From Coprococcus comes ATCC 27758 (GTDB lineage: Bacteria > Bacillota > Clostridia > Lachnospirales > Lachnospiraceae), in contig NZ_CP102277.1 of assembly GCF_025149785.1 (NCBI RefSeq), positions 1,922,001 to 1,986,000 on the forward strand: 64,000 bases of DNA. The letters are read 5' to 3'. The position numbers and the translations under genes are program-made. The notes below the pieces were generated by a model. It was not told the origin of the DNA and did not search any database. It was given only the letters and a program-made list of their open reading frames with translations. Shown here in pieces: positions 33,739 through 48,689 of the stretch (its first letter is position 1; every line of letters starts with the position of its first letter).

Positions 33739-34099
33739 GAATTTTCTTGTTGCGCAGCAGCCTGTTCCATTCCTTATCATCTATTTTCATAAATGTGATA
33801 ATTGAATTTTTGTAGTCCAGATTATCCTTTGATGTAATCAAACGTAAAACCATTTTAAATACTTCTTTAACGTCCTTAATTTCTTTTAGTATCAACGCTG
33901 TATTGGGTTTCTTCGCTTCAATTATATAATCCAGATCCCGTATTATCTCGTCAAAGTATGTAGAAAAAAGTTCATAATCATTGGGATGTCTTTCCCGAAT
34001 ATGCATAATCTGCACAACAGTTATAATAACTTCATCTGTTACTATATCCTCTGCTATACAATGGTATATTTCCCTGTCAATTTTCCCTACTCTATACAC
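33722..34099 (-). CDS. PBECR-type (barnase/EndoU/ColE5-RelE-like) protein
   Basis: A 125-residue protein starting at GTG. The pattern DEVIITVVQIMHIRERHPND, then DYIIEAKKPNTALILKEI, then the KNSIITFMKI and NKKILYKRE ending resembles the phage-barnase-EndoU-colicin-RelE nuclease domains found in phage and element proteins. Histidine, arginine and lysine residues consistent with RNase activity are present, but catalysis is inferred. It begins 15 bp after the DUF5688 gene, so the two are probably one operon. No obvious immunity gene is adjacent. Confidence 0.5.
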   Translation of the reverse strand: MYRVGKIDREIYHCIAEDIVTDEVIITVVQIMHIRERHPNDYELFSTYFDEIIRDLDYIIEAKKPNTALILKEIKDVKEVFKMVLRLITSKDNLDYKNSIITFMKIDDKEWNRLLRNKKILYKRE

Positions 34100-34114
34100 G
34101 TTTATAATCTATCC

Positions 34115-34948
34115 CTACTTCGCCACGATCCGAATCTCCTCCCCATCAAAGTAATACACGGAATCCGAAAGTACTTCCTCCGGTGCCACTCCGGTCTGAT
34201 TGATCTCTTTTACCATTTCCTGCATCCGCTCCGGCTCCAGTCCAAAGCTTTCCGGCACCAGTATCACTTCATGGATACTGCTTGGCAGGATATAGAAATC
34301 CCCTCTGATCATCCCCCTGACCTTTTCCCGGAAATCCGGATACCGCATCACTGCTGCCCCCAGACTGCACTGCTCGTTCGTCGCCACATACATAAAGCGC
34401 ACAATCTGCCGGATCTGCACCGGATAGATCCGCGGTGTATTCTTCTCGGCAAGACGGCGGATTTCTTCCTTTTCCACACGCCAGTACCGCAGATGCTCGT
34501 TGCGGATCTGGATCGCCGCCGAGCCAAAGCGTGTGTTGTCTATCTGGATATAATAGACCACTGCCAGATCCAGGAACGGCTCATAAGGAATCTGCTTTAA
34601 CAGTTCTTCGTTGGCATCCCGCCGGATCAGCTTGTACACGATATGCTCTTTTACATGATTAAAATCAAACAGATTCTGACAATCACAGGTCTTCTTCACC
34701 CGTATCTCCTGATAAATACTGCAAATGGAATCCGCCAGATCCGGTACCTGCTGCCCCTTCAGATACTTCTGGTAAAATTCCTCCAGATAGATCGTCGGTG
34801 CAAGGTTGCTGTCCTCCTGCTTAAAAAGAATCCCTGTTCTTCTGGTTCCATTATTCTTCGTCACGGTGTACAACTCCGTCCTCACCTGCGCATCTACCTG
34901 TCCTCTGATCTCGCATAACATAGCATTCATAAATTCTGTATAATTCAT
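34115..34948 (-). CDS. DUF5688 family protein
   Basis: A 277-residue soluble protein beginning MNYTEFMNAMLCEIRGQV. The central VKEHIVYKLI and FLDLAVVYYI stretches and the C-terminal FYILPSSIHEVILVP are typical of DUF5688 proteins, which are abundant and often multi-copy in Lachnospiraceae. No catalytic motif is obvious and the function is unknown. GGAGAACG precedes the ATG. Confidence 0.75.
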   Translation of the reverse strand: MNYTEFMNAMLCEIRGQVDAQVRTELYTVTKNNGTRRTGILFKQEDSNLAPTIYLEEFYQKYLKGQQVPDLADSICSIYQEIRVKKTCDCQNLFDFNHVKEHIVYKLIRRDANEELLKQIPYEPFLDLAVVYYIQIDNTRFGSAAIQIRNEHLRYWRVEKEEIRRLAEKNTPRIYPVQIRQIVRFMYVATNEQCSLGAAVMRYPDFREKVRGMIRGDFYILPSSIHEVILVPESFGLEPERMQEMVKEINQTGVAPEEVLSDSVYYFDGEEIRIVAK

Positions 34949-35119
34949 CCGTTCTCCTTCCCGAAAGCCATGCGCCGCAAAAAACCTTTTCTGCCATCTT
35001 AAGGCAGCTTATGATTTGAATATCACCTGCATTCAAGCAGGTGTGTACTGCCAATTATATCTGCCCTTTTTTCAGATTACAAGAACATTCTTTTTCCCTC
35101 CAAAATGGCATTGACATGC

Positions 35120-35163
35120 AAAAAAGCCGAAAGCATGAGGACCTGCCTCTGCTTTCGGCTTTT
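35120..35163 (-). terminator. efp terminator
   Basis: Stem AAAAAGCCGAAAGC / GCTTTCGGCTTTT about 40 bp after the efp stop, with a T-run on the minus strand. Confidence 0.85.
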
Positions 35164-35199
35164 ATCTCTGTCTTAATTTTGTGAATTATGACGAAAGGA

Positions 35200-35757
35200 T
35201 TATGCTCTTGAGCTGTACTCTCCTGTACGGGTATCAATTTTGATCTTGTCACCCTGGTTAACGAAAAGCGGTACAAGAACACTTGCTCCTGTTTCAACGA
35301 TAGCCGGTTTAGTAGCACCTGTAGCTGTATCACCTTTTACTCCCGGCTCTGTCTCTGTAACTTCAAGTTCCACACTGATCGGCGGCTCTACTGAGAATAC
35401 GTTACCTTCATGTGAACATACTTTAACCATCTCGTTCTCTTTTACAAACTTGAGGGAATCTCCTACAGTATCTCCATCAACTGCGATCTGGTCGAATGTC
35501 TCAACATCCATGAAGTGATAGAGTTCACCATCAGAATACAGATACTGCATATCTTTTCTGTCGATATGAGCGGTATCGAATTTCTCTGTCGGACGGAAAG
35601 TCTTTTCTACTACACCACCACTGATGATGTTTTTAAGTTTTGTTCTAACGAAAGCTGCTCCCTTTCCCGGTTTTACATGCTGGAATTCCAGAATCTGATA
35701 AATGTTACCTTCGATCAGTACTGTAAGACCATTTCTAAAATCGCCTGCTGAAATCAT
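35200..35757 (-). CDS. efp: Elongation factor P
   Basis: A 185-residue factor that rescues ribosomes stalled at polyproline. It has the KOW-like domain I ([21 protein letters not shown] region) with the tip lysine in KPGKGAAF, and OB domains II and III. Start at 35757 follows AAGGAGG; upstream codons are untranslated leader. It is monocistronic, with its own promoter and terminator. Confidence 0.95.
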
Positions 35758-35820
35758 TGTAATATCCTCCTTATATATGCCCTGGGGCATTCCTTTTACT
35801 TTTTATATACATTACTTATA

Positions 35821-35849
35821 ATTCTATAATAAAAAACTCTATTTTTCAA
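35821..35849 (-). promoter_or_regulatory. efp promoter
   Basis: TTGAAA and TAGAAT are separated by 17 bp on the minus strand. A short ATGCCC/GGGCAT palindrome lies between it and the ribosome site. Confidence 0.6.
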
Positions 35850-35899
35850 CAAAAAATTTCAATCAATTACAGATTTCCCTGATTTTCCGTATTTTTTTG

Positions 35900-36907
35900 C
35901 TATTTCATATAGGCATTATAGAGTTTTTTATCCACATTTTTCTCGATTTCATCGTAAACCGGCTGCACTGCCTCACGGATTTCCGCTCTCAGTTCATCAC
36001 TAAGTGTAACAATCTGTGTTCCACTGTCCTCAATTACTTTGATCTTGTCTGCAATCCGGTCATCCGATGCCTGGCGAGCCTCTTCTTTGGCGATCTCAGC
36101 AGCTTCTACAAGGATTGCCTGCTTATCTTCCGGCAGATCCTGAAAAAATTCATCACTGACGATCAGAGAGATCAGATGCGGCAGGTGATTGGTTTCCACA
36201 ACATAATCCTGCTGTTCATAAAGCTTGTTGGATACGATAACCTCGTATGGATTCTCCTGGGCATCAATGGTTCCCTGCTGCAGCCCGATATACACCTCAC
36301 TGAAACTCATCGGTGTCGGAGATGCTTTCAGTTTTTTCCAGAAATCCATATGGTAGGAATTCTCCATGGTACGGATCTTCTGTCCTTTAAAATCAGCCAA
36401 TGATTCGACCATTTTATTCGTTGACATAACACGGAATCCCTGGTCTGCATAGCCAAGGAGATTATATCCGCCATTCTCATAGACATCCTCCAGAAGTCCA
36501 TAGAACTCCGGATCATCTACCTTTTCACGTACTTCATCAATTGTACTGAATCGGCACGGAATATCAAACACCGCAAGGTCCGGCATGAAAGTTACCTGCG
36601 GTGCGGTATTCTGGATCACAAACGGAATATCCCCATCCTTACAGCTCTCCAGAAGCTCTCTGTCCCCTCCGATCGTACCGTTCGGATAGACCTGGATCTT
36701 CATCTTGCCATCACTTAATTCTTCTACTTCTTCCGCAAATTTTTCTGCATAGATCTGTGTTACGGTATCCTCCGGACTCGCCGTTGCAAGCGGCCATGCA
36801 TATCGCTGTACCTCATCATCCGCAACCGTCTTTTTCTGACACCCCGCACTGAGTGCAAGTGCCGCACACATTCCTGCCGCTACCGCCATTCTTACTGCTT
36901 TCTTCAT
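35900..36907 (-). CDS. dctP: TRAP transporter solute-binding protein (DctP family)
   Basis: A 335-residue extracytoplasmic receptor anchored as a lipoprotein: the lipobox ALSAGC is followed by QKK. The DctP fold shows PNGTIGGDRELLESC, the carboxylate-binding arginine region KGQKIRTMENSYHMDFW, and PMSFSEVYIGLQQGTIDAQENPY (given here as adjoining motifs). It should bind an organic acid. It is the last gene of a QMP operon, 11 bp after dctM, and lies beside the aroD/aroE cluster. Confidence 0.9.
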   Translation of the reverse strand: MKKAVRMAVAAGMCAALALSAGCQKKTVADDEVQRYAWPLATASPEDTVTQIYAEKFAEEVEELSDGKMKIQVYPNGTIGGDRELLESCKDGDIPFVIQNTAPQVTFMPDLAVFDIPCRFSTIDEVREKVDDPEFYGLLEDVYENGGYNLLGYADQGFRVMSTNKMVESLADFKGQKIRTMENSYHMDFWKKLKASPTPMSFSEVYIGLQQGTIDAQENPYEVIVSNKLYEQQDYVVETNHLPHLISLIVSDEFFQDLPEDKQAILVEAAEIAKEEARQASDDRIADKIKVIEDSGTQIVTLSDELRAEIREAVQPVYDEIEKNVDKKLYNAYMK

Positions 36908-36918
36908 GCTGCTACCTC

Positions 36919-38208
36919 CTATATCAGTGCCAGGCTGATCGCCGGGATAAATGTAATTAACAAAAGCGCAACAAGGAAGTAGCCGATCATTGGCATCGCA
37001 TGTTTGGAAATCCGCATGATCGGGATATCTGTAAGCGAGCTTGCCACAAACAGATTGACTCCGATCGGCGGTGTTACAAATCCGATTGCAAGGTTGACAA
37101 CCATCATGATTCCAAAGTGGATCGGATTCATGCCGACTGCTGTTACGATCGGCAGAAGGATCGGTGTCAGGATCAGGATTGCCGGTGTGGTATCCATGAC
37201 CATTCCCACGATCAGAAGGAATACATTGATCACCAGAATCAGGACGATCTTATTGGTAAAGTGCGTCAGGATCCAGGTGCTTACCATCTGTGGGATCTGC
37301 ATCAGAGTCAGAACTCTTGAAAATGCAATCGATGCTGCAAGAATAAACATGATCGGTGCATAGGTGCGCACGCCCTCCACCAGTGCCGGCCAGATATCTT
37401 TAAACGTCATCGTCTTATAAATAAACAGGCTGACGATCAGTGCATAAAATACCGAAATGACTGCCGCTTCTGTCGGCGATGCGATTCCGGAATAGATGCA
37501 TCCCAGAATGATAACCGGACTCAAAAGTGCCCAGAAGCTTTCTTTTAAAACCTTCAGAAGTCCTTTCTCATGAAGTTCCCCGACTACTTTCTGGATCTTT
37601 TCTTTGTCCTCTCCATTCTTTTTACAGTAATAAACTGCATAAACCATCAGAAGTCCGCCGATCAGAAGTCCCGGAATGATCCCTGCGATAAACAGGTCAC
37701 TTACTGATTCACCGGAAGCACTTCCGAACATGATAAACGGAATACTTGGTGGAATAATAACTCCAAGACCACCTGCCACGGCTACGATCGCCGCGGAAAA
37801 ATCCTTATCGTATCCAAGCTCGATCAGAATCGGGATCGTCATACTTCCGACTGCTGCAACCGTTGCCGGTCCGGAGCCTGAGATTGCACCATAAAACAGA
37901 CAGGTTACAATGACCGCGCACGGCAGACCCGCTGTCAGCTTTCCAAGAAAATAGGAAAATACATCAAATAATTTTTTGGAAATGCCGCCTCTTGCCATGA
38001 TGATTCCGGAAAGTACGAACATCGGAACCGCAAGGAGAGGAAAGCTGTCAATTCCTCCCAGCATAGAACGGATCACAAACTGTCCGCTGACTGTGAAGGA
38101 TGGATCAAAAGCACCCGGAAGGACCGATGCGATTGTAAGTGCGATCGATACCGGAATGGCAATGATCAGACAGATTACAAATAAGATAAATACTACTGCT
38201 GCCGGCAT
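36919..38208 (-). CDS. dctM: TRAP transporter large permease (DctM)
   Basis: A 429-residue permease with about 12 helices that imports the substrate with Na+. Family motifs include FYGAISGSGPATVAAVG, PPSIPFIMFGSASGES and VVNLAIGFVTPPIGVN. It overlaps dctQ by 16 bp. TRAP uptake of a carboxylate, plausibly a hydroaromatic acid, would suit the neighbouring genes. Confidence 0.93.
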   Translation of the reverse strand: MPAAVVFILFVICLIIAIPVSIALTIASVLPGAFDPSFTVSGQFVIRSMLGGIDSFPLLAVPMFVLSGIIMARGGISKKLFDVFSYFLGKLTAGLPCAVIVTCLFYGAISGSGPATVAAVGSMTIPILIELGYDKDFSAAIVAVAGGLGVIIPPSIPFIMFGSASGESVSDLFIAGIIPGLLIGGLLMVYAVYYCKKNGEDKEKIQKVVGELHEKGLLKVLKESFWALLSPVIILGCIYSGIASPTEAAVISVFYALIVSLFIYKTMTFKDIWPALVEGVRTYAPIMFILAASIAFSRVLTLMQIPQMVSTWILTHFTNKIVLILVINVFLLIVGMVMDTTPAILILTPILLPIVTAVGMNPIHFGIMMVVNLAIGFVTPPIGVNLFVASSLTDIPIMRISKHAMPMIGYFLVALLLITFIPAISLALI

Positions 38209-38708
38209 GCTTTTTCTCCTTTCTCATCTTTTTCTCTTACTACTTTTAATTCTGCAAACCATCGCTGGATAATACGGATCGCTACCAGGATAAAACTTGC
38301 AAGCGGTGCTGCCTGCACATAATACATCGGGATGTGGCACGCCGGACTTACCTGTCCGCTCTCTACTGCTGACATCATATACTTAAACGCAAACGGTATC
38401 AGGTAAAGAAATACCATCAGTTCAAAGGTATGGTTAACCAGTTTAAAAAGTGCCTTCCCTCTTCGTGGGAAAATTGACACAAACTGTTCGATCTTAATGG
38501 AAATACATTTTTTTGTGCAATAGCTGACGCTCAAAAATCCCGACCATACAAACAGGTAACGGGTAATCTCCTCCGACCAGGACGGCGCTGAGCCGAGTAC
38601 ATATCTGGAAAACACCTGGATCCCCATGATCACTGTCATCAGAATCAGGCTTATCACCATAAAAAATTCTTCCAGATAGTTATCCAGCCAGATTACTGTT
38701 TTCTTCAT
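38193..38708 (-). CDS. dctQ: TRAP transporter small permease (DctQ)
   Basis: A four-helix small subunit with FSRYVLGSAPSWSEEITRYLF, matching the DctQ signature in separate segments (SRYVLG; WSEEITRYLF). It is about 171 residues. ATG at 38708 is 8 nt after GGAGGG; earlier in-frame ATGs are less well placed. First gene of the operon, with a good promoter. Confidence 0.88.
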   Translation of the reverse strand: MKKTVIWLDNYLEEFFMVISLILMTVIMGIQVFSRYVLGSAPSWSEEITRYLFVWSGFLSVSYCTKKCISIKIEQFVSIFPRRGKALFKLVNHTFELMVFLYLIPFAFKYMMSAVESGQVSPACHIPMYYVQAAPLASFILVAIRIIQRWFAELKVVREKDEKGEKACRQQ

Positions 38709-38743
38709 TCGCATTTGCCCTCCATTCATGTAATCATACAAAA

Positions 38744-38772
38744 ATGATATCAATTACCGAAGAATTTGTCTA
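38744..38772 (-). promoter_or_regulatory. TRAP operon promoter
   Basis: TAGACA and TATCAT, each one mismatch from consensus, are separated by 17 bp, about 35 bp before dctQ. Confidence 0.65.
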
Positions 38773-38869
38773 TTTTTTCTATTTGCTTTTCTCTCTTTAA
38801 ATAGCAAAATTTTCTATAATTTTTCACTTTCAGAAATCGGTTAGTTTTTTAACAAAACCAGAATATGAT

Positions 38870-38915
38870 AAAGGCCCGCAATCCACCGGAATCCCCGGTA
38901 TGACTGCGGGTCTTT
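38870..38915 (-). terminator. Terminator of the aroE-MFS-aroD operon
   Basis: AAAG-CCCGCA / TGCGGG-CTTT outer stem with an inner ACCGG/CCGGT helix, about 75 bp after the aroD stop. Confidence 0.75.
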
Positions 38916-38989
38916 ATCCTGCCTTTTTCACTCTTCATTCAGGTTAAACATAACGGATCCGCCACAGGACTTCTCCGGATGTTTCTTCA

Positions 38990-39754
38990 CTAGATGCTCT
39001 TATCGATCAGAGTCAGGATTTCTCTTAAATCTGATGCATTCATCTGTCCAGGTGCAGAAGCTTTTCCTACTGCCCCGAAAGTAAGTGCTGAACCGAATAC
39101 TTCACCGCACAGACGACTGATCAGTCCGGTACCTGCCATAGACATTGTAATGATCGGACGGTCTGCATGTTCTTCTGCCATTTCACGTGTTGCTTCAAGA
39201 AGTGTAAGTACATCCTTTTTGCACTGTGGCATTACTGCAATTTTCGGGATATCTGCGCCGAGTTCCTGCATTTTCACAAGGCGTCCTACGATATCGTCTT
39301 TGTCCGGTGTCTTATCGAAGTCATGGTTGGATGCAACGACTTTTACGCCGTGTGCATGCGCGCCTTCGATGATATCTTTTACAACTTCGTCCCCTGTAAA
39401 TGCTTCTACATCCACAAGGTCAACCAGTCCTGTTGCTGCTGCTTTCTTGTTCAGCTCTGCATATGCGTCAGCTTCGATTGCTTTTTCGCCGCCTTCTTTG
39501 GAAGTACGGAATGTGAAAAGAATCGGAGTTTCGCCAAGTGCCGGACGAAGGTCTTTTAATACATCTTCAACCTGTGCGAAGTCAAATACACCTTCGAACC
39601 AGTCTACACGCCATTCTACAACATCAAGCGCAACATCCTCAAAAGATCTTGCTGCTGCAAGAATTTCTTCTTTTGTCTTTCCGACGATCGGTACACAGAT
39701 TTTCGGTACTCCTTCACCGATCTTAACGCCACGAACTTCTACATATTTACTCAT
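38990..39754 (-). CDS. aroD: 3-dehydroquinate dehydratase, type I
   Basis: A 254-residue TIM-barrel Schiff-base enzyme that interconverts 3-dehydroquinate and 3-dehydroshikimate. The catalytic histidine is in ASNHDFDKTP (about residue 143) and the Schiff-base lysine in PKIAVMPQ (about residue 170). VVEWRVDWF and the C-terminal GQMNASDLREIL are conserved. It is the last gene after the MFS transporter and aroE. Type I enzymes serve biosynthesis or quinate catabolism; the neighbours favour catabolism. Confidence 0.94.
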   Translation of the reverse strand: MSKYVEVRGVKIGEGVPKICVPIVGKTKEEILAAARSFEDVALDVVEWRVDWFEGVFDFAQVEDVLKDLRPALGETPILFTFRTSKEGGEKAIEADAYAELNKKAAATGLVDLVDVEAFTGDEVVKDIIEGAHAHGVKVVASNHDFDKTPDKDDIVGRLVKMQELGADIPKIAVMPQCKKDVLTLLEATREMAEEHADRPIITMSMAGTGLISRLCGEVFGSALTFGAVGKASAPGQMNASDLREILTLIDKSI

Positions 39755-39772
39755 GTCTGTTTTCTCCTTTTT

Positions 39773-40987
39773 CTAGTTGTCAGCCTGAGCCTGTTCTACC
39801 ATCTTAGTATAACGTAAGTTTACAAATAATCCAAGAAGGACTCCAACTGCTGTAAGAACGATATTCATAACCATAACCTGTGACGGCTGCATTTTGGATG
39901 CTGCTGTAAGGATGGTGTAGTTACACAGGGAAGATGCGATCATAACAAGTGCTGTTACAGTTCCTTTGATCTTCGGGAAAAGCATGTTGCATACAGAAGT
40001 TGCGATCTGAAGAAGTCCGCCTGCTCCTGCCCATCCGATCAGGAATGCACCTGCAATCATAAGTGTCTGGCTCTTTCCAACCAGAACAGCGATCATTGTT
40101 ACAAGACAGATTACCGGGTATCCCAGGATAAATCTTACGTCTTTGATCTTTCTTGTTAAAAGTGCAGTTACAACGAGTGCAAGCATTGTTCCTGCTGAAT
40201 AGTATGTCTGCATGATGGACGGATCAGCCCAGCCAACATTCTCTTTTGCAAAGTTCTGTGCACAGTTCAGCCATAACTGGAAAGTACCTGTACATGTGAA
40301 TCCGATCAGGATCATTGCGATGGATTCTACAGAGAAATGTGTATGCTTTAAGCTGTCGATCAGGCCTTCTTTCTTTCCCGCTGCTTTCTGATCTGTATCC
40401 GGGAGTGGAAAGATCATAACCAGTACCAGAAGTACAAGATAAGCGATTCCACATGCATAGAACAGTGTGTTGTAAGAGGTTGCTCCTGTTGCTGTTGTAG
40501 CGACAGTTACACCAAGTACGAACGGTAAAAGCATCTGCGATACAGAAATAAAGAATTTGATCCCCATAGTTGCAACGCCCGGTGCTTTGTAAATGATTTC
40601 TGAAACAGCCGGGTAAATTCCTGTATCCAGGAAAGAGTTTGCGATACCACCAACGATTGCACAGATATATGCGATCTGGTATCCACCATTTGTTCCTGCA
40701 TTAAATGCAAGTGCAAGTCCGATCAGGTAGATTGCATAGGATCCACTACCGATCGCTGTTGAAATACGACGTCCGAGTTTGTCAGAAAGCGGTCCGGCGA
40801 ACGGAAGCGCGATCAGACGTCCAAGTCCGAGTGCTGCTGAAATTGCAGTGATTGCCATAACTTCTACGCCCCAGGAAGCGGCAAGTGCTTCCTTGATGAC
40901 TGCCTGTCCAAGGATGGAACATCCGACACCGTGGATAAAGTAGTTTAAATAAAGGATCAGGGCGCTGGGTATGTATTTCTTATTCAT
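39773..40987 (-). CDS. MFS transporter, probably for a hydroaromatic acid
   Basis: A 404-residue carrier with about 12 helices and the MFS loop motif AGPLSDKLGRRIS between helices 2 and 3. GAGGAAAAG precedes the ATG. It lies between aroE and aroD in one operon, so uptake or exchange of shikimate, quinate or a product is the likely role. This substrate is inferred from context only. Confidence 0.8.
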   Translation of the reverse strand: MNKKYIPSALILYLNYFIHGVGCSILGQAVIKEALAASWGVEVMAITAISAALGLGRLIALPFAGPLSDKLGRRISTAIGSGSYAIYLIGLALAFNAGTNGGYQIAYICAIVGGIANSFLDTGIYPAVSEIIYKAPGVATMGIKFFISVSQMLLPFVLGVTVATTATGATSYNTLFYACGIAYLVLLVLVMIFPLPDTDQKAAGKKEGLIDSLKHTHFSVESIAMILIGFTCTGTFQLWLNCAQNFAKENVGWADPSIMQTYYSAGTMLALVVTALLTRKIKDVRFILGYPVICLVTMIAVLVGKSQTLMIAGAFLIGWAGAGGLLQIATSVCNMLFPKIKGTVTALVMIASSLCNYTILTAASKMQPSQVMVMNIVLTAVGVLLGLFVNLRYTKMVEQAQADN

Positions 40988-41059
40988 CTCTTTTCCTCAC
41001 ATTCCTGTTTTTCAAATTTTTTCGATTTCTTCTTAAATTCAATACAAGCCTGCCGGGTA

Positions 41060-41938
41060 TTAATCATCGTATCTGATGTTTAATACTTCTTTCATGTGTT
41101 CGATCGGCATTTCTTTTCCTGTCCAGAGTTTGAATGCTGCTGCTCCCTGGAATAACATCATTCCAAGACCGTTCATTGTCTTACATCCAACTTCTTTTGC
41201 CATAGAACGCATCTTTGTTTCCAGTGGTGAGTAAGGAACATCAATAACAATAAGTTCCGGACGGAAGAATGATTTATCCGGTACAACTGACATTCCTTCC
41301 AGTGGTTTCATACCAACACCTGTTCCGTTTACGAAGATGTATGAATCGTTCATTTCTTCTCTTAATTTTTCTTTGTCATCCAGATCGTAAAGAGTAGCTT
41401 TGCAGTTTGTCTTTTCATTGATCTTTCTTACTGTTTCTTCAGCGTTTGCCCAGAATTTATCATGAATATTGAAAATAGAGATTTCTTTTACGCCGTCAAG
41501 TGCAGCCTGGATTTCAATTGCTGTAGCAGCTCCGCCTGCGCCTGCGATTGTCATCTTCTTTCCGATCACATCGATATCGTTATCTTTTAACGCCTGCATG
41601 AATCCGATGCCATCTGTGATGTGTCCTGTTAAAACACCATCTTCATTTACGATTGTGTTAACTGCTCCACAAAGCTCTGCTGCCGGAGATAATTTGTCCA
41701 GATACTGTCCAACAACTGTTTTATTTGGCATAGACACGTTAGATCCTACCATTTTCAGAGCACGAAGTCCTTTTACTGCATCTTCCAGTGTGCTGTTGTC
41801 AACTTCAAATGCAAGGTAAGCATAATCCAGTCCAAGGTAAGCAAATGCTTCATTATGCATTGCCGGTGAGCTTGAATGTCTGATTGGATAAGCCATAAGT
41901 CCGATAAGTTCTGTGTGTCCTGTAATTCTCTCTGCCAT
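41060..41938 (-). CDS. aroE: Shikimate/quinate dehydrogenase, YdiB-like
   Basis: A 292-residue oxidoreductase. The substrate site has PIRHSSSPAMHNEAF and the catalytic lysine of VSMPNKTVVG; the partner aspartate is in GHITDGIGF. The nucleotide motif is GAGGAATAIEI. Where NADP-specific AroE has an NRT motif, this protein has FNIHDKFWANA, close to the YdiB pattern (N-x-x-D-x-F), suggesting NAD use and action on quinate as well as shikimate. First gene of the operon with the MFS and aroD genes. Confidence 0.9.
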   Translation of the reverse strand: MAERITGHTELIGLMAYPIRHSSSPAMHNEAFAYLGLDYAYLAFEVDNSTLEDAVKGLRALKMVGSNVSMPNKTVVGQYLDKLSPAAELCGAVNTIVNEDGVLTGHITDGIGFMQALKDNDIDVIGKKMTIAGAGGAATAIEIQAALDGVKEISIFNIHDKFWANAEETVRKINEKTNCKATLYDLDDKEKLREEMNDSYIFVNGTGVGMKPLEGMSVVPDKSFFRPELIVIDVPYSPLETKMRSMAKEVGCKTMNGLGMMLFQGAAAFKLWTGKEMPIEHMKEVLNIRYDD

Positions 41939-42036
41939 GATTTGTTCTCCTTTTCTTCTTCCATCGAAATTTATTTCTTTGTTCTTTGAGAATGTTTTTA
42001 ACGTTTGCCCAATTTTGTTAATTTTTAAACAACCTC

Positions 42037-42104
42037 TTGATAGTTAAATTATAGACGATATCATTTGATAGTTCAAATATATCTTATGTGTGTTTTTGAT
42101 AGCT
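42037..42104. promoter_or_regulatory. Three TTGATAG direct repeats, candidate LysR operator
   Basis: TTGATAGTT at 42037, TTGATAGTT at 42065 and TTGATAGCT at 42096 lie at about three-turn spacing in the divergent region between aroE and a LysR gene. LysR-type regulators usually bind several such sites at shared control regions. Confidence 0.45.
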
Positions 42105-42160
42105 TTTTGGCATCAGTTATGGTATGATTATTTTATATAATATAGAAAGGATTTTTTACC

Positions 42161-43045
42161 ATGACGCTAAATCAGCTTGAATATTTCCAAAAAGTAGCAA
42201 CCCTGCAGCATTTCCGACAGGCTGCAGAATTACTTAAGATCTCCCAGCCAAGCCTCAGCCGGTCCATGTCGCTTCTGGAAGAAGAACTTGGACTGATGCT
42301 TTTTGAACATCAGGGACGCAATGTTGTCCTCACCAAATCCGGCCGCGTCTTCCTGGAACATGTCAACCGGATCCTCGAGGAGGTACATATTGCCGAGCAT
42401 AAGATGAAGCAGCTTGCCGGAAGCGGCGGACATATTGATATCGCCTATGTATTTCCGCTGGCAAACTACTATATTCCGCATACAGTGCGATCCTTCCTAG
42501 ATATAGACCGCAACAAGCATGTAACCTTCAATTTTAACCAAACGCACACTGCAGATATGATCCAGGGGCTCAAATCCGACCGCCACGATGTGATCTTTGG
42601 TTCTTTCGTTGCGGATGAACCGGATATTTCCTTTGTACCCATTCTGAACCAGAATATGGTTGTAATTACTCCAAAAGAACATCCTCTTGTCCAGAAAGAA
42701 TCCGTCTGTTGCAGTGACCTTACTGACTATCCTCTGATCGGGTATGACCGCTATTCCGGACTCGGTGGCTTCACCCGTAACTTCTATAAAGAAAAGAAGC
42801 TGAAGGTAAACATCGTCTGTGAGTGTCCGGATGAAAACGCAATTGCTGCCCTGGTTGCCGAAGATTTCGGAATCGCCCTGGTTGCCAGGGTCGATGCGGT
42901 TGATCAGGCAAATGTAACCGTACTCCCGCTTGCCGATGCAGACCTTACCCACACCGTTTATATGGGATACATCCGCGACAAATACCAGATTCCCGCTGTC
43001 AAACGTTTCATCCAGTTTGTCAAAAGAGATGGGAAGGCCTATTAA
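42161..43045 (+). CDS. LysR-family regulator, divergent from aroE
   Basis: A 294-residue LTTR. The N-terminal helix-turn-helix is seen in FRQAAELLKISQPSLSRSMS, followed by LMLFEHQGRNVVLTKSG and a periplasmic-binding-like effector domain. It is divergent from the aroE operon, the usual arrangement when an LTTR controls it, and a small hydroaromatic acid is a likely effector. GAAAGGA precedes the ATG. Its end overlaps the next LysR gene by 4 bp, tail to tail. Confidence 0.92.
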   Translation: MTLNQLEYFQKVATLQHFRQAAELLKISQPSLSRSMSLLEEELGLMLFEHQGRNVVLTKSGRVFLEHVNRILEEVHIAEHKMKQLAGSGGHIDIAYVFPLANYYIPHTVRSFLDIDRNKHVTFNFNQTHTADMIQGLKSDRHDVIFGSFVADEPDISFVPILNQNMVVITPKEHPLVQKESVCCSDLTDYPLIGYDRYSGLGGFTRNFYKEKKLKVNIVCECPDENAIAALVAEDFGIALVARVDAVDQANVTVLPLADADLTHTVYMGYIRDKYQIPAVKRFIQFVKRDGKAY

Positions 43046-43932
43046 AGTGCCTTCCCATTGCTTTCTTTTACATATTCAATAAATTCTTTTACAACCGGCG
43101 CCAGATATTTTTCCTTCAGCTTCGCCAGATATATATAACGTTCGTATGGTGGATTCTCAATATCCAGTACATCTACATTCAGATTTTTAAGTATAGGAAT
43201 CTCCGGCATTACCGCAATTCCAAAATTTTCTGCCACAAGACCTGCCATCGATGCATCTTCCAGAATCTCATATGCTATCTTCGGTGTCCCTCCGGTCTGT
43301 TCAAACAACTGGTCGATCACCGGTCTGAGCCCGCTGTTCTTGGTGAAATATACCTGGGGATAAGGAAGTGTTTCCTTCAGATCAACAGATCCTCTTCCGG
43401 CAAGCTCATGGTCTCTTGGAACAACAACAACCAATTTTTCCTTAGCGATCGGTACAAAATCAATCCCGGATTCTTTTTCTTTTCGCGAGCAGAGAGCGAT
43501 GTCATACTTCTCCTCTTTCAACCCTTGTATAATCTCTGTCGTATTTCCGACAGAAAAACGGAAATTCACATCCCAGTCTTCGTGTTCCTTCAAAAAACCG
43601 CCTACAAGCTGTGGAACAAATACACTTCCAAGCGTAAAAATATATGCGAGATCGATCACCCCGCCGGTGTCACTTGTCAACGCCCTTGTCTTTTTTACAC
43701 CACTGTCCAGAATCTTTAAAGCTTCTTCTACATATTCCAGAAATACTTTTCCGTACTTTGTCAGTACAACGTTACGCCCTCTTTTTTCAAACAGGTTTGT
43801 CTCAAGCTCCTGCTCCAGCATACTTATGGCATGGCTGAGACTTGGCTGCGTAATGGACAGCATTTCCGCCGCTCTGGTATAGTGTTCTATATGTGCTAGT
43901 GTCACAAAGTAATGCAACTGATTCAGATTCAT
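43042..43932 (-). CDS. LysR-family regulator, divergent from the ene-reductase
   Basis: A 296-residue LTTR, paralogous to its convergent neighbour. The helix-turn-helix is YTRAAEMLSITQPSLSHAIS, followed by LFEKRGRNVVLTKYG. The effector domain is complete. It is divergent from the flavoprotein gene at 44329, so it probably controls that gene. AGAGGGTGATG precedes the ATG. The pair likely arose by local duplication and inversion. Confidence 0.92.
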   Translation of the reverse strand: MNLNQLHYFVTLAHIEHYTRAAEMLSITQPSLSHAISMLEQELETNLFEKRGRNVVLTKYGKVFLEYVEEALKILDSGVKKTRALTSDTGGVIDLAYIFTLGSVFVPQLVGGFLKEHEDWDVNFRFSVGNTTEIIQGLKEEKYDIALCSRKEKESGIDFVPIAKEKLVVVVPRDHELAGRGSVDLKETLPYPQVYFTKNSGLRPVIDQLFEQTGGTPKIAYEILEDASMAGLVAENFGIAVMPEIPILKNLNVDVLDIENPPYERYIYLAKLKEKYLAPVVKEFIEYVKESNGKAL

Positions 43933-44111
43933 AAAACCATCACCCTCTTTCCTGTTCTTATATTAAACATAGCATAAATTATTTAATTATTCTATAGTTT
44001 TGTTTAAATTGTCTATCTTTTTCCACTTCCCGTCTTCCTAGTATAATTTTATTTTTATCTTTTTCGCTGTTTCTATAGTTATATTCTATTATTTTTCTAT
44101 GTATTTTCAAT

Positions 44112-44141
44112 TTGTATTTTTCAGTTTTTTGTAGTTATAAT
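44112..44141 (+). promoter_or_regulatory. Ene-reductase promoter
   Basis: A perfect TATAAT -10 with a weak TTGTAT -35 at 18 bp. TCTATAGTT at 43991 and 44072, similar to the aroE-side repeats, flank it and may bind the LysR protein. The weak -35 fits an activator-dependent promoter. Confidence 0.5.
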
Positions 44142-44147
44142 GGATTT

Positions 44148-44328
44148 AACAAAAACCGGTACGCCCAAGCCGGTATAAGACAACCTCGTGTGACTAAGAT
44201 TTTTTGAGGATTGCAGGAATTGCATAGCAATGGAGCAATCCGATTACATCAGTGAGTGGCAAAATTTACTTTTGACACTCACATCATTTTATTTTGATTA
44301 TTAAGTCATTTTTACGGAGGAATTTCTA
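44148..44328 (+). promoter_or_regulatory. Long structured leader of the ene-reductase mRNA
   Basis: About 180 nt of untranslated leader with successive hairpins: ACCGG/CCGGT, CCTC/GAGG, GGATTGC/GCAATCC and GTGAGTG/CACTCAC. The last is followed by the T-rich ATCATTTTATTTTGATT, so it could act as an attenuator. No coding frame is apparent. The rest of the 395-bp gap upstream is A/T-rich promoter DNA. Confidence 0.45.
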
Positions 44329-46329
44329 ATGAAAAGCAAATACAAACACATTTTCGAGCCATTTACCATCAAACATATGACGGTCAAGAACCGTATCGTC
44401 ATGACTCCAATGGGAACCAACTACGGTGAACAGAATGGTGAAATGAGTTTTCTTCATATCAATTATTACGAGCAGCGTGCAAAAGGCGGTACAGGACTTC
44501 TCATCGTAGAGAACGCCAGCGTTGATTCTCCACAGGGATCTAACGGAACCACACAGCTTCGTATCGATCAGGATAACTACATTCCAAGACTTTTCAAACT
44601 TTGCGAAACAGTACACAAACATGGATCCTGCATTGCAATCCAGATCAATCATGCCGGTGCTTCTGCACAGTCAGCACGTATCAATATGCAGCCGGTTTCT
44701 GCTTCTGATGTTCCTTCAAAAGCAGGCGGTGAAATCCCGCGTCCACTGGAAAAAGATGAAATCATGCATATTGTAAAAAAATACGGTGAAGCCGCAAAAC
44801 GTGCTCAGATCGCAGGGTTTGACGCTGTAGAAATCCACGCAGGACATTCTTACCTTATAAGCCAGTTCCTTTCACCTCTTACAAATAAGAGAACAGACGA
44901 ATTCGGCGGATCTTTGGAAAACCGTGCAAGACTTGCAAAACTTGTTATTGAAGAAGTTAGAAGACAGGTTGGACCATTCTTCCCTATCTTTGTTCGTATC
45001 AGTGCGGATGAATTTATGGAAGGCGGAAATACTTTGGATGACTGTCTTGATTACCTTCAGTACTTCCAGGAAGAAGTTGACGTATTCGACGTATCTGCCG
45101 GTCTGAACGGATCCATTCAGTACCAGATTGATGCCAATTACCTTCCGGATGGATGGCGTTCTTATATGGCAAAAGCTGTAAAAGAACGTTACGGCAAACC
45201 ATGTATGACAATGGGTAACATCCGTAACCCACAGGTTGCCGAAGATATTCTTGCAAGAGGCGATGCTGACCTGATCGGTATGGGACGTGGACTGATCGCT
45301 GATCCGGAATGGGTAAATAAAGTAGAATTCGGTGATGAATGTGATATCCGTAAATGTATTTCTTGTAACATCGGATGTGCAGGACACCGTATCGGAATCA
45401 ACCGTCCGATCCGTTGTACTGTTAACCCGTCTGTAAATGGCGGCGAAAATTACAAAAAGCAGAAAATCAACAAGCCTTGCAACGTTGTTGTGATCGGTGG
45501 TGGTACTGCCGGACTGGAAGCTGCATGTACAGCTGCCGAGGTTGGATGCACTACTTTCCTGATCGAGAAGAAACCGGAACTCGGCGGACTTGCCGCCCTG
45601 ATCTCCAAGATCCCGGATAAGAAGAGACTTGCTGACTTCCCGAACTATCTGATCCATCGCGCAAGCAAGCTGAAAAACCTGTTCATCTTCAAGAACACGG
45701 AAGCTACGATTGAAATGATCAGAAGCATGAACCCGAACATTATTGTAAATGCTACCGGTTCTAATCCGCTCCTTCCACCGATCAAGGGCCTTCATGAGAA
45801 TATTGACAAAGAGGGCGGAAAAGTTTCTTCTATTACAAATATGATCAACCATGTTATGGAATATCCAGAAGATCTGAAAGGCAAAAAAGTCGTTGTTATC
45901 GGTGGCGGTGCCGTAGGTCTTGACGTAGTAGAATTCTTTGCTCCACGTGGTGCTGATGTAAGCATTGTGGAAATGATGCCGGTAATCGGTAACGGAATTG
46001 ATCCGGTATCCAAAGTCGGAACCTTTGCACTGATGGATAAATATGGTGTAAAACAGTGTCCGAATACTGCTCTTCTTGAAGTTAAAGCAGATTCCTTCCT
46101 TGTTAAAACGCCAGAAGGAAATGAAGAAGAAATGCTATTTGATTATGGATTTGTATGTCTTGGTATGAGAGCAAACGCTCCGATCCTCGATGCAGTCCGT
46201 AAAGAATTCGAAGATGAAGATGTTGAAATCATGAACATCGGTGACAGTGTACGTGCCCGCCGTATCATCGAAGGTACAGAAGAAGGACGTAATATCCTGA
46301 ATGTTCTTGCCAAACATGACTACTTATAA
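44329..46329 (+). CDS. 2-enoate reductase-type FMN/FAD/Fe-S oxidoreductase
   Basis: A 666-residue flavoprotein of the old-yellow-enzyme, 2-enoate reductase, BaiCD group. The N-terminal FMN barrel has VMTPMGTNYG, IQINHAGASA and the active-site HAGHSYLISQFLSP. A 4Fe-4S motif, CISCNIGCAG plus a fourth cysteine in IRCTVNP, is near residues 342-365. The C-terminal half has an FAD fold (VVVIGGGTAGLEAAC) and an NADH fold (VVVIGGGAVGLDVVE). Such enzymes reduce C=C bonds conjugated to a carboxylate or carbonyl with NADH. Shikimate and 3-dehydroshikimate contain that bond. GGAGGAAT precedes the ATG. Confidence 0.9.
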   Translation: MKSKYKHIFEPFTIKHMTVKNRIVMTPMGTNYGEQNGEMSFLHINYYEQRAKGGTGLLIVENASVDSPQGSNGTTQLRIDQDNYIPRLFKLCETVHKHGSCIAIQINHAGASAQSARINMQPVSASDVPSKAGGEIPRPLEKDEIMHIVKKYGEAAKRAQIAGFDAVEIHAGHSYLISQFLSPLTNKRTDEFGGSLENRARLAKLVIEEVRRQVGPFFPIFVRISADEFMEGGNTLDDCLDYLQYFQEEVDVFDVSAGLNGSIQYQIDANYLPDGWRSYMAKAVKERYGKPCMTMGNIRNPQVAEDILARGDADLIGMGRGLIADPEWVNKVEFGDECDIRKCISCNIGCAGHRIGINRPIRCTVNPSVNGGENYKKQKINKPCNVVVIGGGTAGLEAACTAAEVGCTTFLIEKKPELGGLAALISKIPDKKRLADFPNYLIHRASKLKNLFIFKNTEATIEMIRSMNPNIIVNATGSNPLLPPIKGLHENIDKEGGKVSSITNMINHVMEYPEDLKGKKVVVIGGGAVGLDVVEFFAPRGADVSIVEMMPVIGNGIDPVSKVGTFALMDKYGVKQCPNTALLEVKADSFLVKTPEGNEEEMLFDYGFVCLGMRANAPILDAVRKEFEDEDVEIMNIGDSVRARRIIEGTEEGRNILNVLAKHDYL

Positions 46330-46359
46330 GATTTTGTAAATATAATATTCCCCCTGATG

Positions 46360-46390
46360 TCCCCCGGTTCTCGTTATGAGAACCGGGGGG
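46360..46390 (+). terminator. Ene-reductase terminator
   Basis: A 12-bp stem CCCCCGGTTCTC / GAGAACCGGGGG with a 5-nt loop, followed by ATTTCTATTT, 31 bp after the stop. Confidence 0.8.
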
Positions 46391-46412
46391 ATTTCTATTT
46401 ACTTTACTAAAA

Positions 46413-46542
46413 AGAATGTGCCAAGGCACATTTTCGCGCCGAGCGCAGTCGCTTGCGACATTCTTCATCTTCGTGCGAGTGCACATCTTTGGCACGCAGT
46501 GCCTTTTATTTGATAGGAAGTTCCTTCGGAATTTCCTATCAA
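46413..46542. repeat. Compact cluster of nested palindromes
   Basis: Successive inverted repeats: TGTGCC/GGCACA at 46417-46430, GTCGC/GCGAC at 46448-46459, AAGAATGT pairing with ACATTCTT across them, and GATAGGAAGTTCC / GGAATTTCCTATC with flanking T and A tracts. It lies between convergent genes. It may be a mobile palindromic repeat or a folded 3' UTR. Confidence 0.55.
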
Positions 46543-46554
46543 AAAATGCCCTGC

Positions 46555-47070
46555 CTACTTGCAGGACATTCTCTTTTCGTTCTCTTTTTTATAGAAATGT
46601 AATACAATCTTCTCCAGATATCTTTTCAGCACAATCTGGATCTCTTCTTTTGGATTGATCGGCTTCACCAGAATACTCTTCATCCCGGTACGCTTCGCTC
46701 CCCACACATCCGTAAAAAGCTGATCTCCGATAAATACAGTGTTTCCTCTGTCCGTTTGCATCAGCTCCATGGCTTTTATATAATTCTTCGTGGAAGGCTT
46801 ATGCGCGTTAAACACATACTTGCTCTGCACCTTTTCGGCAAAAGGCTTTACACGTGGTTCCTGGTTATTGGAAATCAGGCATGTATCAAACCCGATGCTG
46901 CGCAGCCTGTCAAAAAGACAGATTGCTCTCTCATCTGCCGGTGCTCCATGCGGAACCAGCGTATTGTCAATGTCAAATACCAGTCCACGACAGCCTTCCC
47001 GATACATTTTTTCAAAATCCAGTACATAAGTGGACGCTACATATTCGTCCGGATAAAAGGTCTTAAACAT
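46555..47070 (-). CDS. YqeG-family HAD phosphatase
   Basis: A 171-residue HAD hydrolase. Motif I is LVFDIDNTLVPHG, motif II SNN, motif III lysine in HKPSTKNYIKA and motif IV FIGDQLFTDVWGA. The phosphatase residues are complete. Firmicutes homologues (YqeG) usually sit near shikimate-pathway or ribosome-assembly genes; the substrate is uncertain. ATG at 47070 overlaps the end of the upstream kinase gene by 8 bp, so they are coupled. Confidence 0.85.
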   Translation of the reverse strand: MFKTFYPDEYVASTYVLDFEKMYREGCRGLVFDIDNTLVPHGAPADERAICLFDRLRSIGFDTCLISNNQEPRVKPFAEKVQSKYVFNAHKPSTKNYIKAMELMQTDRGNTVFIGDQLFTDVWGAKRTGMKSILVKPINPKEEIQIVLKRYLEKIVLHFYKKENEKRMSCK

Positions 47071-47854
47071 GATTCTCATCCATTTCCAGAAGCTTCTGAA
47101 TCAGATCTTCACAGATCTGCAGAACCGTCTTGTTATCTGTATCTACAACGATATCTGCAGCCGCCTCGTATTTTTCTCTTCTTGCTTCCATCAGCTGCTC
47201 GATATATTCTACATTCTTGTGTCCATTGAGCAGCGGTCTGTCGTCACTGTCTTTTACACGGTCAAGAATGGTCTGTGGATGTGCAGTAAGGAGTACTACA
47301 CGACCATTTTTCTTCATCTCTGCGACATTGCGTTCACGCATTGCCACACCACCACCACAGGAAATGATCACATTCTTCTTCTCCTGCATCTCGATCAGAA
47401 GATTGGTTTCCATATTACGGAAGTATTCCTCCCCATAGGTTTCAAAAATATCGGAAATACTCATGCCTTCGCGTTCTGCAATCAGCTGGTCCATCTCAAC
47501 CACTTCCATGGCAAACATGGTGCTAAGATAATCAGAGATCGTACTTTTTCCAGCTCCCATAAACCCGATCAGGACAATGTTGTAATCAAAAAGCTTTCTA
47601 GCCTGGATCTTCTTACTGTTGCGCTGGATACGCTCAAATACATCATAAATCTCGTCTCTGTGCTTATCATTGTGAAGGCTGAACATCAGTCTCTTCTTCT
47701 GCTTTTCTTCCTGTTCCGGCTGCAGGATCGGCATACCATACTCTTCTTTGTATGCCATGATCTTTTCAATGATCGCATATCTTTCTTTTAATGCCTCTGT
47801 GATCTTCGCATCACAGTTTGCAAGCTCTTCACGGTATAATTCCAAATCGTTCAT
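47063..47854 (-). CDS. aroK: Chorismate mutase-shikimate kinase fusion
   Basis: A 263-residue bifunctional-looking protein. Residues 1-85 form an all-helical chorismate mutase type II (AroQ) domain: LYREELANCDAKITEALKER then IIEKIMAYKEEYG. Residues about 92-260 form shikimate kinase with P-loop LIGFMGAGKST, MDQLIAEREGMSISDIF, SCGGGVAMR and RPLLNGH. It phosphorylates shikimate and may rearrange chorismate to prephenate. It shares an operon with YqeG. Confidence 0.9.
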   Translation of the reverse strand: MNDLELYREELANCDAKITEALKERYAIIEKIMAYKEEYGMPILQPEQEEKQKKRLMFSLHNDKHRDEIYDVFERIQRNSKKIQARKLFDYNIVLIGFMGAGKSTISDYLSTMFAMEVVEMDQLIAEREGMSISDIFETYGEEYFRNMETNLLIEMQEKKNVIISCGGGVAMRERNVAEMKKNGRVVLLTAHPQTILDRVKDSDDRPLLNGHKNVEYIEQLMEARREKYEAAADIVVDTDNKTVLQICEDLIQKLLEMDENHV

Positions 47855-47920
47855 CTATCAATTCCTCGTTTCTCACTCTACTGCTTTCCGGGTGCCTTCA
47901 ATTGCCCGTTGTATTAAAAC

Positions 47921-47950
47921 ATTATAGCAGACACTTTGGAAGTGAATCAA
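47921..47950 (-). promoter_or_regulatory. Promoter of the aroK fusion gene
   Basis: TTGATT and a perfect TATAAT are separated by 18 bp. It overlaps the 3' region of the amidase gene upstream by a few bases only outside its stop. Confidence 0.6.
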
Positions 47951-47960
47951 TAGATATTTT

Positions 47961-48689
47961 TTATTTTGCGTTATCCAGGACCGCTTTTACATCACTTTTA
48001 AACTGCTTCCAGGCATCTTCATTTTCGACAAAGTATTTCGGACAGATTTTCCCTGTAATATCATAATGTCGGATCACATCTTCTTCTGTCAGCGAAAACT
48101 TTTCACACAGCCATGCTGTAAGTTGTACCATGCTCTTATAAGTTGCCTCGTTGAACTTTCCGGTCTCATCCGGATGACAGCACTCAATGGACACCGTATC
48201 AAAATTCCGTGTATTGGACGCATATGCAACCTCCCAGGTTGGTACGCACTGTACGATTTCCCCGTCCAGTCCTACTACAAAATTACTGCTTGCCTGCGTA
48301 ATGTGACTGTCCTTCAGTCCCTCAAAATAGTCTCTGTTCTCCATCGCTGTCGAACCAGGATTGGCAGTGTAATGAATGACTATTCCGGTAATCTCATTGG
48401 TTGAAAGTCCCGGTCTTGAATATTCATTCACAGTTAACAGTTCTACATCAATATCCGGCTTTTGGGCACTGATCACTTCATCAGAAAGCTCACTGTATGC
48501 TCTCTGTGCAAAGATTCCTCTTCCACTGATCTTCATAATAGAAAGTGCAAGAAGCAGTGTGATCAGGATCGTACTTCCCACCTTTATATAACGGCTCATT
48601 CTGCGCCTCTTATTCGCCTCATAATAGCTTTTTCCATCGCCACCCCTGTACAGGTTGGCTCTGGTGTTTTTCTTCTTTCTTCGGTTCAT
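47961..48689 (-). CDS. N-acetylmuramoyl-L-alanine amidase, membrane-anchored
   Basis: A 242-residue peptidoglycan amidase. A basic N-terminus and one signal-anchor helix (about residues 36-52) are followed by an Amidase_2 domain. Zinc ligands are seen in GIVIHYTANPG, VIRHYDITGKICPKYF with its histidine and cysteine, and the catalytic VSIECCHPDE. It cleaves the MurNAc-L-Ala bond outside the membrane. Confidence 0.9.
   Translation of the reverse strand: MNRRKKKNTRANLYRGGDGKSYYEANKRRRMSRYIKVGSTILITLLLALSIMKISGRGIFAQRAYSELSDEVISAQKPDIDVELLTVNEYSRPGLSTNEITGIVIHYTANPGSTAMENRDYFEGLKDSHITQASSNFVVGLDGEIVQCVPTWEVAYASNTRNFDTVSIECCHPDETGKFNEATYKSMVQLTAWLCEKFSLTEEDVIRHYDITGKICPKYFVENEDAWKQFKSDVKAVLDNAK

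Follow-up and report, generated by a model that had tools for sequence, protein, structure and literature searches.

The sequence analyzed here is a 64,000-nucleotide stretch of the genome of Coprococcus comes ATCC 27758 (3.37 Mb on a single contig), and this whole stretch is called the window. Positions 35900-46329 hold the genes of a TRAP transporter (dctQMP), an aroD-MFS-aroE group that includes a major facilitator superfamily (MFS) transporter gene, two LysR genes, and the gene for one 666-amino-acid ene-reductase (ENR). We examined whether ENR belongs functionally with its neighbors and which reaction it might catalyze. The genes and predicted features of the cluster are as follows.

35900-36907, minus strand: dctP, TRAP solute-binding protein (PF03480, 260.6 bits)
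36919-38208, minus strand: dctM, TRAP large permease (PF06808, 377.5 bits)
38193-38753, minus strand: dctQ, TRAP small permease (PF04290, 109.2 bits)
38990-39754, minus strand: aroD, type I 3-dehydroquinate dehydratase (DHquinase_I, 276.1 bits; TIGR01093, 255.4 against a cut-off of 139.3)
39773-40987, minus strand: MFS transporter (PF07690, MFS_1, 78.5 bits)
41060-41938, minus strand: aroE, cluster-type shikimate/quinate dehydrogenase (Shikimate_dh_N, 99.9 bits; NF001313, 538.7 against a cut-off of 431)
42161-43045, plus strand: LysR1, QuiR-related, divergent from aroE (over the Pfam cut-off; best PDB match 5ted)
43042-43932, minus strand: LysR2, QuiR-like, divergent from ENR (over the Pfam cut-off; best PDB match 5ted)
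44075-44089, no strand assigned: predicted LysR operator ATAG-N7-CTAT, upstream of ENR (recurring dyad)
44329-46329, plus strand: ENR, 666-residue ene-reductase with an FMN-binding old yellow enzyme (OYE) barrel, a 4Fe-4S cluster and an FAD-NAD(P)H domain (Oxidored_FMN, 272 bits; Pyr_redox_2, 93.3 bits)
46360-46390, plus strand: predicted terminator 3' of ENR (pattern scan; 14-pair stem, 9 of them G-C)

An initial annotation, made from the sequence alone, had listed these genes and their coordinates, and each was recovered with a clear family match. The two LysR genes are divergent from an enzyme gene, as that annotation had described, and are convergent with each other, overlapping by 4 bases. 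On the minus strand, aroE, the MFS gene and aroD are tightly packed, and a 236-base gap precedes dctQ-dctM-dctP. The TRAP transporter is complete, with DctP, DctQ and DctM all present by Pfam. The best PDB matches of dctP are the sialic-acid protein SiaP and other DctP proteins, from which its substrate is not readable. Those of aroE and aroD are 3tnl (1.1e-127) and 3js3 (4.4e-97), respectively. AroE had been described as YdiB-like, a label that does not plainly hold: its score in the YdiB model (NF009390) is 340.9 bits, just below the cut-off of 349, and it is the NF001313 model whose cut-off it passes. The protein is 67.2% identical to the AroE of the Listeria cluster, 66.9% to that of the Klebsiella cluster, and 55.7% to the second AroE of its own genome. 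Cluster DNA is 94-97% identical to that of Coprococcus comes MSK.16.63, and the ENR proteins are 99% identical. The pattern scan gave 16 terminator-like sites in the region, compared with 9.0 expected from shuffles. No Rfam family matched positions 35000-48000 at gathering scores.

ENR is the single PF00724 gene found in the genome. It combines the OYE barrel (PF00724), a cysteine motif (Cys343/346/350/363, CX2CX3CX12C) and an FAD/NAD(P) domain (PF07992), which are the characteristics of OYE-type two-domain Fe-S flavoenzymes. The corresponding motif of the DCR/BaiCD superfamily is defined as CX2CX3CX11-13C (excerpt of PMC11574389). His170, His173 and Tyr175 of ENR align with the HAAHGY segment of YqjM. 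In YqjM-type OYEs the His-His/Tyr set is catalytic, and Cys26 and Tyr28 belong to the pocket. The three residues and the four cluster cysteines are invariant across 77 aligned ENR relatives, and the enzyme is therefore expected to carry out reduction with NAD(P)H by way of FAD, the 4Fe-4S cluster and FMN. Reduction of a C=C bond with NADH, as suggested earlier, is plausible. Some polar residues of the barrel have a conservation of 97% or more in ENR but seldom occur in 40 other OYEs and differ in ENR2, a second group of these proteins; Arg78, Asn107, Arg117 and Arg277 are among them.

In a tree made by a quick method with no bootstrap, all 24 ENR rows (of 78) form one clade (SH-aLRT 100) that is separate from all 14 ENR2 rows and from the 42 remaining OYE rows (two of these group with ENR2). 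The best full-length PDB match is 'NCR' 6qkg, presumably a 2-naphthoyl-CoA reductase. Three named functions were considered and rejected on score: BaiCD bile-acid reductase (NF041087, 474.4 bits against a cut-off of 825), long-form bilirubin reductase (NF045599, 357 against 750), and mycofactocin OYE 2 (TIGR03997, 426 against 793.15). Among the best 25 of 91 NCBIfam matches, no model is named 2-enoate reductase (EC 1.3.1.31).

The genomic linkage of ENR is conserved. A protein-pattern scan fetched 74 ENR loci, which include close relatives and so are not independent. Forty-eight of these have at least 5.5 kb on both sides (the full-flank set), and the 26 with a shorter flank on at least one side were excluded from that set. 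AroE and/or a 3-dehydroquinate dehydratase (DHQase) is encoded within 8 kb of ENR in 47 of the 48 full-flank loci and in 65 of all 74. Eight of the nine loci lacking both have a short flank, and one (L049) has full flanks; L077, which holds a 34% paralogue only, is counted as a miss within the 74. In the full-flank set an MFS gene is near in 36 loci, TRAP genes in 25 and LysR in 31, and an MFS homologue lies within 8 kb in 49 of the 74.

As a control, 100 Lachnospiraceae genomes, mostly draft contigs, were searched for ENR, the OYE family, AroE and both dehydroquinase families. This control differs from the 74-locus set both in sample and in distance limit (10 kb rather than 8 kb). It used 135 of 144 PF00724 places, after exclusion of six second gene pieces and three places below the cut-off, and 62 of 66 AroD places, after exclusion of second pieces. 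AroE or a dehydroquinase lies within 10 kb of only 3 of 127 other OYE places, and two of these three belong to the ENR2 clade. In this control, the less biased of the two samples, ENR was found in 6 of 100 genomes including the window's own, with a broken copy only in G005 and two copies in G036. Intact ENR places are near AroE or a dehydroquinase in four of six cases, or three of five if the window's own is set aside. The broken relative (L086, G005:C40:1-6608) consists of pieces on both strands with stops. A chance neighborhood is rejected by the comparison of 47/48 with 3/127: the linkage of ENR to AroE and DHQase is more than chance. The proposal of the initial annotation that the cluster has a quinate/shikimate function of which ENR is part is supported. 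That annotation had named as a refuting result that ENR homologues consistently lie apart from aroD and aroE, and by these figures they do not.

Both regulators point to the same ligand class. The best PDB match of each is 5ted ('Lmo0488 protein'), with E-values of 3.9e-52 for LysR2 and 7.6e-34 for LysR1, and their identities to Listeria QuiR are 48.6% and 35.4%, respectively. Entry 5TED is the effector domain of Listeria monocytogenes QuiR with shikimate (excerpts of PMC11602165, PMC7837296 and PMC9973260). In the Listeria locus L087, the LysR divergent from ENR is near letter-identical to the 5ted chain, and by this sequence match it is QuiR.

A candidate operator recurs upstream of both transcription units. 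Upstream regions of ENR (69) and aroE (33) from the 74 loci were scanned for 4-base dyads with spacers of 3-9 (256 x 7 dyads tested, first-order Markov background); the sequences are related, and the counts are not independent. The top dyad common to both sets is ATAG-N7-CTAT, present in 32/69 ENR and 16/33 aroE regions; over 20 Markov-resampled sets, the mean counts were only 0.7 and 0.2, respectively. Among the 33 loci having both regions, it precedes ENR in 17, aroE in 16, and both in 10. Of the regions that precede unassigned open reading frames, 14 of 493 contain the dyad, as do none of the 15 that precede ENR2. Outside the discovery set it precedes ENR in five of seven loci, namely L081, L083, L087 (Listeria), L088 (Paenibacillus) and L089 (Klebsiella); this count leaves aside L082 (identical to L052, genome G036), L090 (from Listeria innocua, at the position already represented by L087) and L086 (the broken gene). 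The window has a single exact copy, before ENR at 44075-44089. The dyad fits the T-N11-A form of LysR boxes.

The ENR leader has a further feature. It folds with a z-score of -4.2 (44140-44328) and includes a hairpin-rich stretch of ∼78 bases (44208-44285) that is missing from the C. comes locus L005. The two hairpins of this stretch have no second copy in the window. The stretch may be a small mobile element that has inserted between the promoter and ENR.

Maps were drawn for 30 of the 74 loci, plus L013. Gene order varies (Coprococcus, Sarcina L035, Blautia L042, L013, L060), and gene content is constant. In all six Clostridium loci (L061-L066), ENR is accompanied by a DHQase of type II, AroQ; L061 and L064 show the order AroE-AroQ-ENR, and family models identified the AroQ of L061. 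AroQ is unrelated in fold to AroD. The DHQase has thus been replaced by a non-homologous type in Clostridium, and it is the function, rather than one gene family, that is conserved. As judged from their gene content, nearly all versions of the cluster appear to retain a route to or from 3-dehydroshikimate.

Some relatives depart from the common plan. Faecalicatena faecalis/orotica, Hespellia and L056 keep AroD, MFS and TRAP, and have no AroE near. The maps of L047 and L051 show two zinc dehydrogenases and a TIM-barrel isomerase preceding ENR. The variant operon (L047:4045-17000) has a GntR regulator, an HMGL-like lyase, a creatininase-like protein, the zinc dehydrogenases and the isomerase ahead of ENR-AroD-MFS-TRAP, again with no AroE near. 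Similar operons occur in L048, L051, L052 (= L082) and L055, and partly in L056. The substrate route in this variant may be a different or a longer one.

A second cluster, LysR/QuiC-like (Lmo2234 family)-ENR2-AroE-MFS, often adjoins the ENR cluster (L042:15749-21995, L091:3938-10134). ENR2 is also present in L022, L028, L030, L038, L039, L044, L045, L050, L053, L059, L070 and L072. Blautia and Listeria carry this second cluster, and a genome with both clusters could oxidize part of the acid and reduce the remainder. Its existence is one reason to consider that the genes form protocatechuate, as the Listeria pathway is titled, with ENR merely reoxidizing NADH or handling a side product. Another is that QuiR was published, to judge from a title, as the regulator of protocatechuate genes. 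A protocatechuate route requires a dehydroshikimate dehydratase, and we take the Lmo2234 type to be a 3-dehydroshikimate dehydratase. The second-cluster protein of Blautia matches Lmo2234 (2g0w) with an E-value of 1.8e-96. No Lmo2234-type protein was found in the genomes of the window, of C. comes L005 or of R. inulinivorans L012, whereas 3/3 positive-control genomes gave a match; other dehydratase types were not sought, and this part of the argument is weak. Moreover, oxygen-reducing NADH oxidase would presumably be a poor role in the anoxic gut. A protocatechuate route in this strain is therefore judged less likely than reduction, and as an account of the cluster it is quite improbable.

Another consideration is whether the aro genes simply serve aromatic amino-acid biosynthesis and lie beside a flavoprotein by chance. 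AroD is the sole DHQase found in the genome, and a chorismate mutase-shikimate kinase fusion is encoded next to the cluster (47063-47854, minus strand), both of which would fit that view. Opposed to it are a second AroE near aroB in a separate region, the transporters, the QuiR-like regulators, the shared dyad, and linkage that crosses phyla. We give this explanation almost no credence. Since the region that holds aroB and the adjoining second aroE is without a dehydroquinase, the cluster AroD must serve both biosynthesis and the cluster if the biosynthetic pathway is active. The initial annotation had taken the type I AroD to indicate catabolism, an argument that does not survive the survey of the 100 Lachnospiraceae genomes: type I is present in 59, type II in 39, both in 2 and neither in 4, and here the type I enzyme is the only DHQase found. 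The two types are nearly mutually exclusive across these genomes. In 18 of the 74 loci, the mutase-kinase fusion is no more than 8 kb from ENR. Elsewhere in the window (33722-34948, minus strand), a PBECR2-type nuclease-domain protein adjoins a DUF5688 protein.

The window unites orthologues of the ENR, AroE and AroD of the QuiR-regulated operon with a QuiR-like LysR divergent from ENR. The kinship of the LysR proteins with QuiR, the shared dyad, the conserved linkage, and the orthologous sets in Listeria and Klebsiella together make it very likely that the cluster is a quinate/shikimate module of the QuiR type, related to the Listeria operon. We are confident that the cluster is a quinate/shikimate module and that ENR is a functional part of it. 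For the transport substrate, the inducer in this strain, the substrate and product of ENR, and its physiological role, we infer the following scheme. The TRAP carrier, the MFS carrier or both would import quinate or shikimate, and the module would probably be shikimate-responsive through QuiR-type regulation. AroE would oxidize quinate to 3-dehydroquinate, or shikimate to 3-dehydroshikimate, and AroD would dehydrate 3-dehydroquinate to 3-dehydroshikimate. ENR could then reduce the C1=C2 bond of 3-dehydroshikimate with hydride from NADH, relayed via FAD, the 4Fe-4S cluster and FMN. A dehydrogenase, possibly AroE, would subsequently reduce the ketone to a dihydroshikimate-like 3,4,5-trihydroxycyclohexane carboxylate. 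The predicted net reaction is quinate + NADH to dihydroshikimate + water, with loss of the C1 hydroxyl and use of one NADH, or alternatively shikimate + NADH to dihydroshikimate.

If this scheme is correct, then the pathway would serve as a soluble electron (NADH) sink that follows an oxidize-dehydrate-reduce logic, as in bile-acid dehydroxylation. The initial annotation had also offered respiration as a function. Membrane respiration is unsupported and was set aside, as the cluster genes include no cytochrome or other membrane redox family.

The substrate proposed for ENR is suggested by the chemistry of the family. In OYE catalysis, the hydride goes to the enone beta carbon. 3-Dehydroshikimate is such an enone, and its carboxylate sits on the same double bond. 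AroD and AroQ both form it, as does AroE when acting on shikimate. Thus, 3-dehydroshikimate is favored both as the kind of compound that OYE enzymes prefer and as the metabolite common to AroE and either DHQase. We consider the full mechanism with this substrate somewhat better than an even bet.

It can be argued instead that ENR acts on shikimate itself, as a 2-enoate reductase of the free alpha,beta-unsaturated carboxylate, with AroE and AroD only feeding quinate into shikimate. The linkage to AroE and DHQase would be the same, the ligand described for QuiR in the excerpted sources is shikimate, and some family members presumably reduce unactivated enoates. Yet a free carboxylate activates poorly, and it is the enone 3-dehydroshikimate that all partner enzymes have in common. 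In addition, AroD is kept, with AroE not near, in L047, L048, L051, L052, L055 and L056. Shikimate is accordingly less likely than 3-dehydroshikimate as the substrate, and a mechanism built on it seems unlikely.

A different double bond is offered by chlorogenate, the caffeoyl ester of quinate. The caffeate (cinnamate) side chain might be what ENR reduces, with the quinate half left to AroE and AroD, so that both halves of one dietary ester would be used; ENR-like flavoenzymes presumably reduce enoates. The cluster genes, however, include no esterase family by Pfam, ENR remains linked to AroE and a DHQase across Clostridium, Listeria and Klebsiella, and the kinship of the LysR proteins points to shikimate. 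An SGNH/GDSL hydrolase encoded 3' of aroD in L. innocua does not count against the chlorogenate proposal, which we nevertheless regard as highly improbable.

Several observations weigh against reduction of 3-dehydroshikimate by a QuiR-type module. The pocket of ENR is unlike that of a textbook OYE, with Gly29 at the position of YqjM Cys26 and a gap opposite Tyr28. The exact dyad is missing from 37/69 ENR regions and 17/33 aroE regions, from before the aroE of the window, and from before ENR in L084 and L085. Within 8 kb of ENR, the sole full-flank exception, L049, has only TRAP of the cluster genes. In control genome G085, ENR lies beside LysR2, the mutase-kinase fusion and efp, at a distance of 187 kb from AroD and 823 kb from the nearest AroE, and the ENR of G036:C25 has neither AroE nor DHQase on its 58-kb contig. 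AroD is the sole DHQase found here, and its operon position could partly reflect biosynthesis. The Listeria genes were published, as far as titles reveal, under protocatechuate biosynthesis and not reduction. Finally, the Lmo2234-type member of Listeria reaches only 35/1200 bits in the QuiC model, so absence here says little.

We propose only tentatively, at somewhat less than even probability, that ENR is an ene-reductase dedicated to 3-dehydroshikimate (or shikimate), that it defines a reductive quinate/shikimate branch common to gut Clostridia, Listeria and Klebsiella in which reductive dehydroxylation of quinate serves as an NADH sink, and that it supplies the ring-saturating step toward cyclohexanecarboxylate and hippurate. 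Quinate and its ester chlorogenate are common dietary plant acids. Work of some decades ago reported that the gut microbiota converts shikimate to cyclohexanecarboxylate, and that the host aromatizes this product and excretes it in the form of hippurate (Brewster et al. 1978, according to an excerpt of PMC7558350). If the proposal is true, ENR would catalyze the ring saturation needed for this microbial conversion, and the cluster offers candidate genes for the old observation that shikimate is reduced in the gut. The cluster also offers a candidate operator and a candidate regulator, for which the class of ligand is known. Among the open-licence papers listed (the best 5-25 per search), we found no genes for microbial reduction of shikimate; nor did these papers yield an assigned reaction for ENR or ENR2 or an account of this gene set, an absence that is weak evidence.

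The initial annotation knew of no characterized pathway with exactly this gene set. That statement needs revision for the core, since LysR/ENR-AroE-AroD is an operon of Listeria beside QuiR (Lmo0488), and it stands for ENR, for which no assigned reaction was found. The core gene set is therefore already known, and it is the ENR reaction, and with it a reductive branch, that seems unassigned in the open-licence papers listed. Outside Clostridia, ENR orthologues occur in Listeria (60.7% identity), on Paenibacillus plasmids (60%) and in Klebsiella (56.6%). Listeria shares with the window the divergent QuiR-type LysR, the orthologues of ENR and AroE, a type I AroD, and the dyad upstream of ENR, whereas the window adds dctQMP, the MFS gene and a second LysR. 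The QuiR targets in Listeria are titled 'protocatechuate biosynthesis genes' (Prezioso et al. 2018, by its title in the reference lists of PMC11602165, PMC7837296 and PMC9973260). The Listeria sequence NZ_CP030101.1 (2.9 Mb) is labelled a plasmid but is chromosome-sized.

Klebsiella pneumoniae (L089) has ENR-AroE-MFS-AroD/LysR, annotated by family only. Five gene kinds are shared with the window, as is the dyad upstream of ENR; in contrast to the window, there is one LysR, and no TRAP genes were seen in the 9-kb flanks. The one Paenibacillus locus inspected has ENR without other cluster genes. Escherichia coli ydiN-ydiB-aroD resembles the window in its adjoining genes for an MFS transporter, a quinate/shikimate dehydrogenase and AroD. 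It differs in having no ENR; the genes that follow encode a CoA transferase, an acyl-CoA dehydrogenase and an electron transfer flavoprotein (ETF)-like protein (K-12 1772512-1780381, L134), perhaps a non-homologous reductase in place of ENR. A blastn search of E. coli genomes with the Klebsiella ENR DNA gave no match, although distant relatives would be missed.

The nearest mechanistic parallels are BaiCD and related gut Fe-S flavoenzymes, including the bile-acid, bilirubin and daidzein reductases, which share the two-domain FMN/4Fe-4S/FAD build of ENR. BaiCD-type enzymes carry out NAD(P)H-driven C=C reduction with this build (excerpt of PMC11574389). The BaiCD pathway has the same oxidize-dehydrate-reduce logic that we propose for the cluster, but ENR lies far below the curated cut-offs of BaiCD and bilirubin reductase and forms its own clade. 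A physiological parallel may exist in lactobacilli, which reportedly reduce quinate and shikimate to hydroaromatic acids (work attributed to Whiting and Coggins). We know of no genes for that reduction. Both the type of product and the electron-sink role said to apply in lactobacilli are like those proposed for the C. comes cluster.

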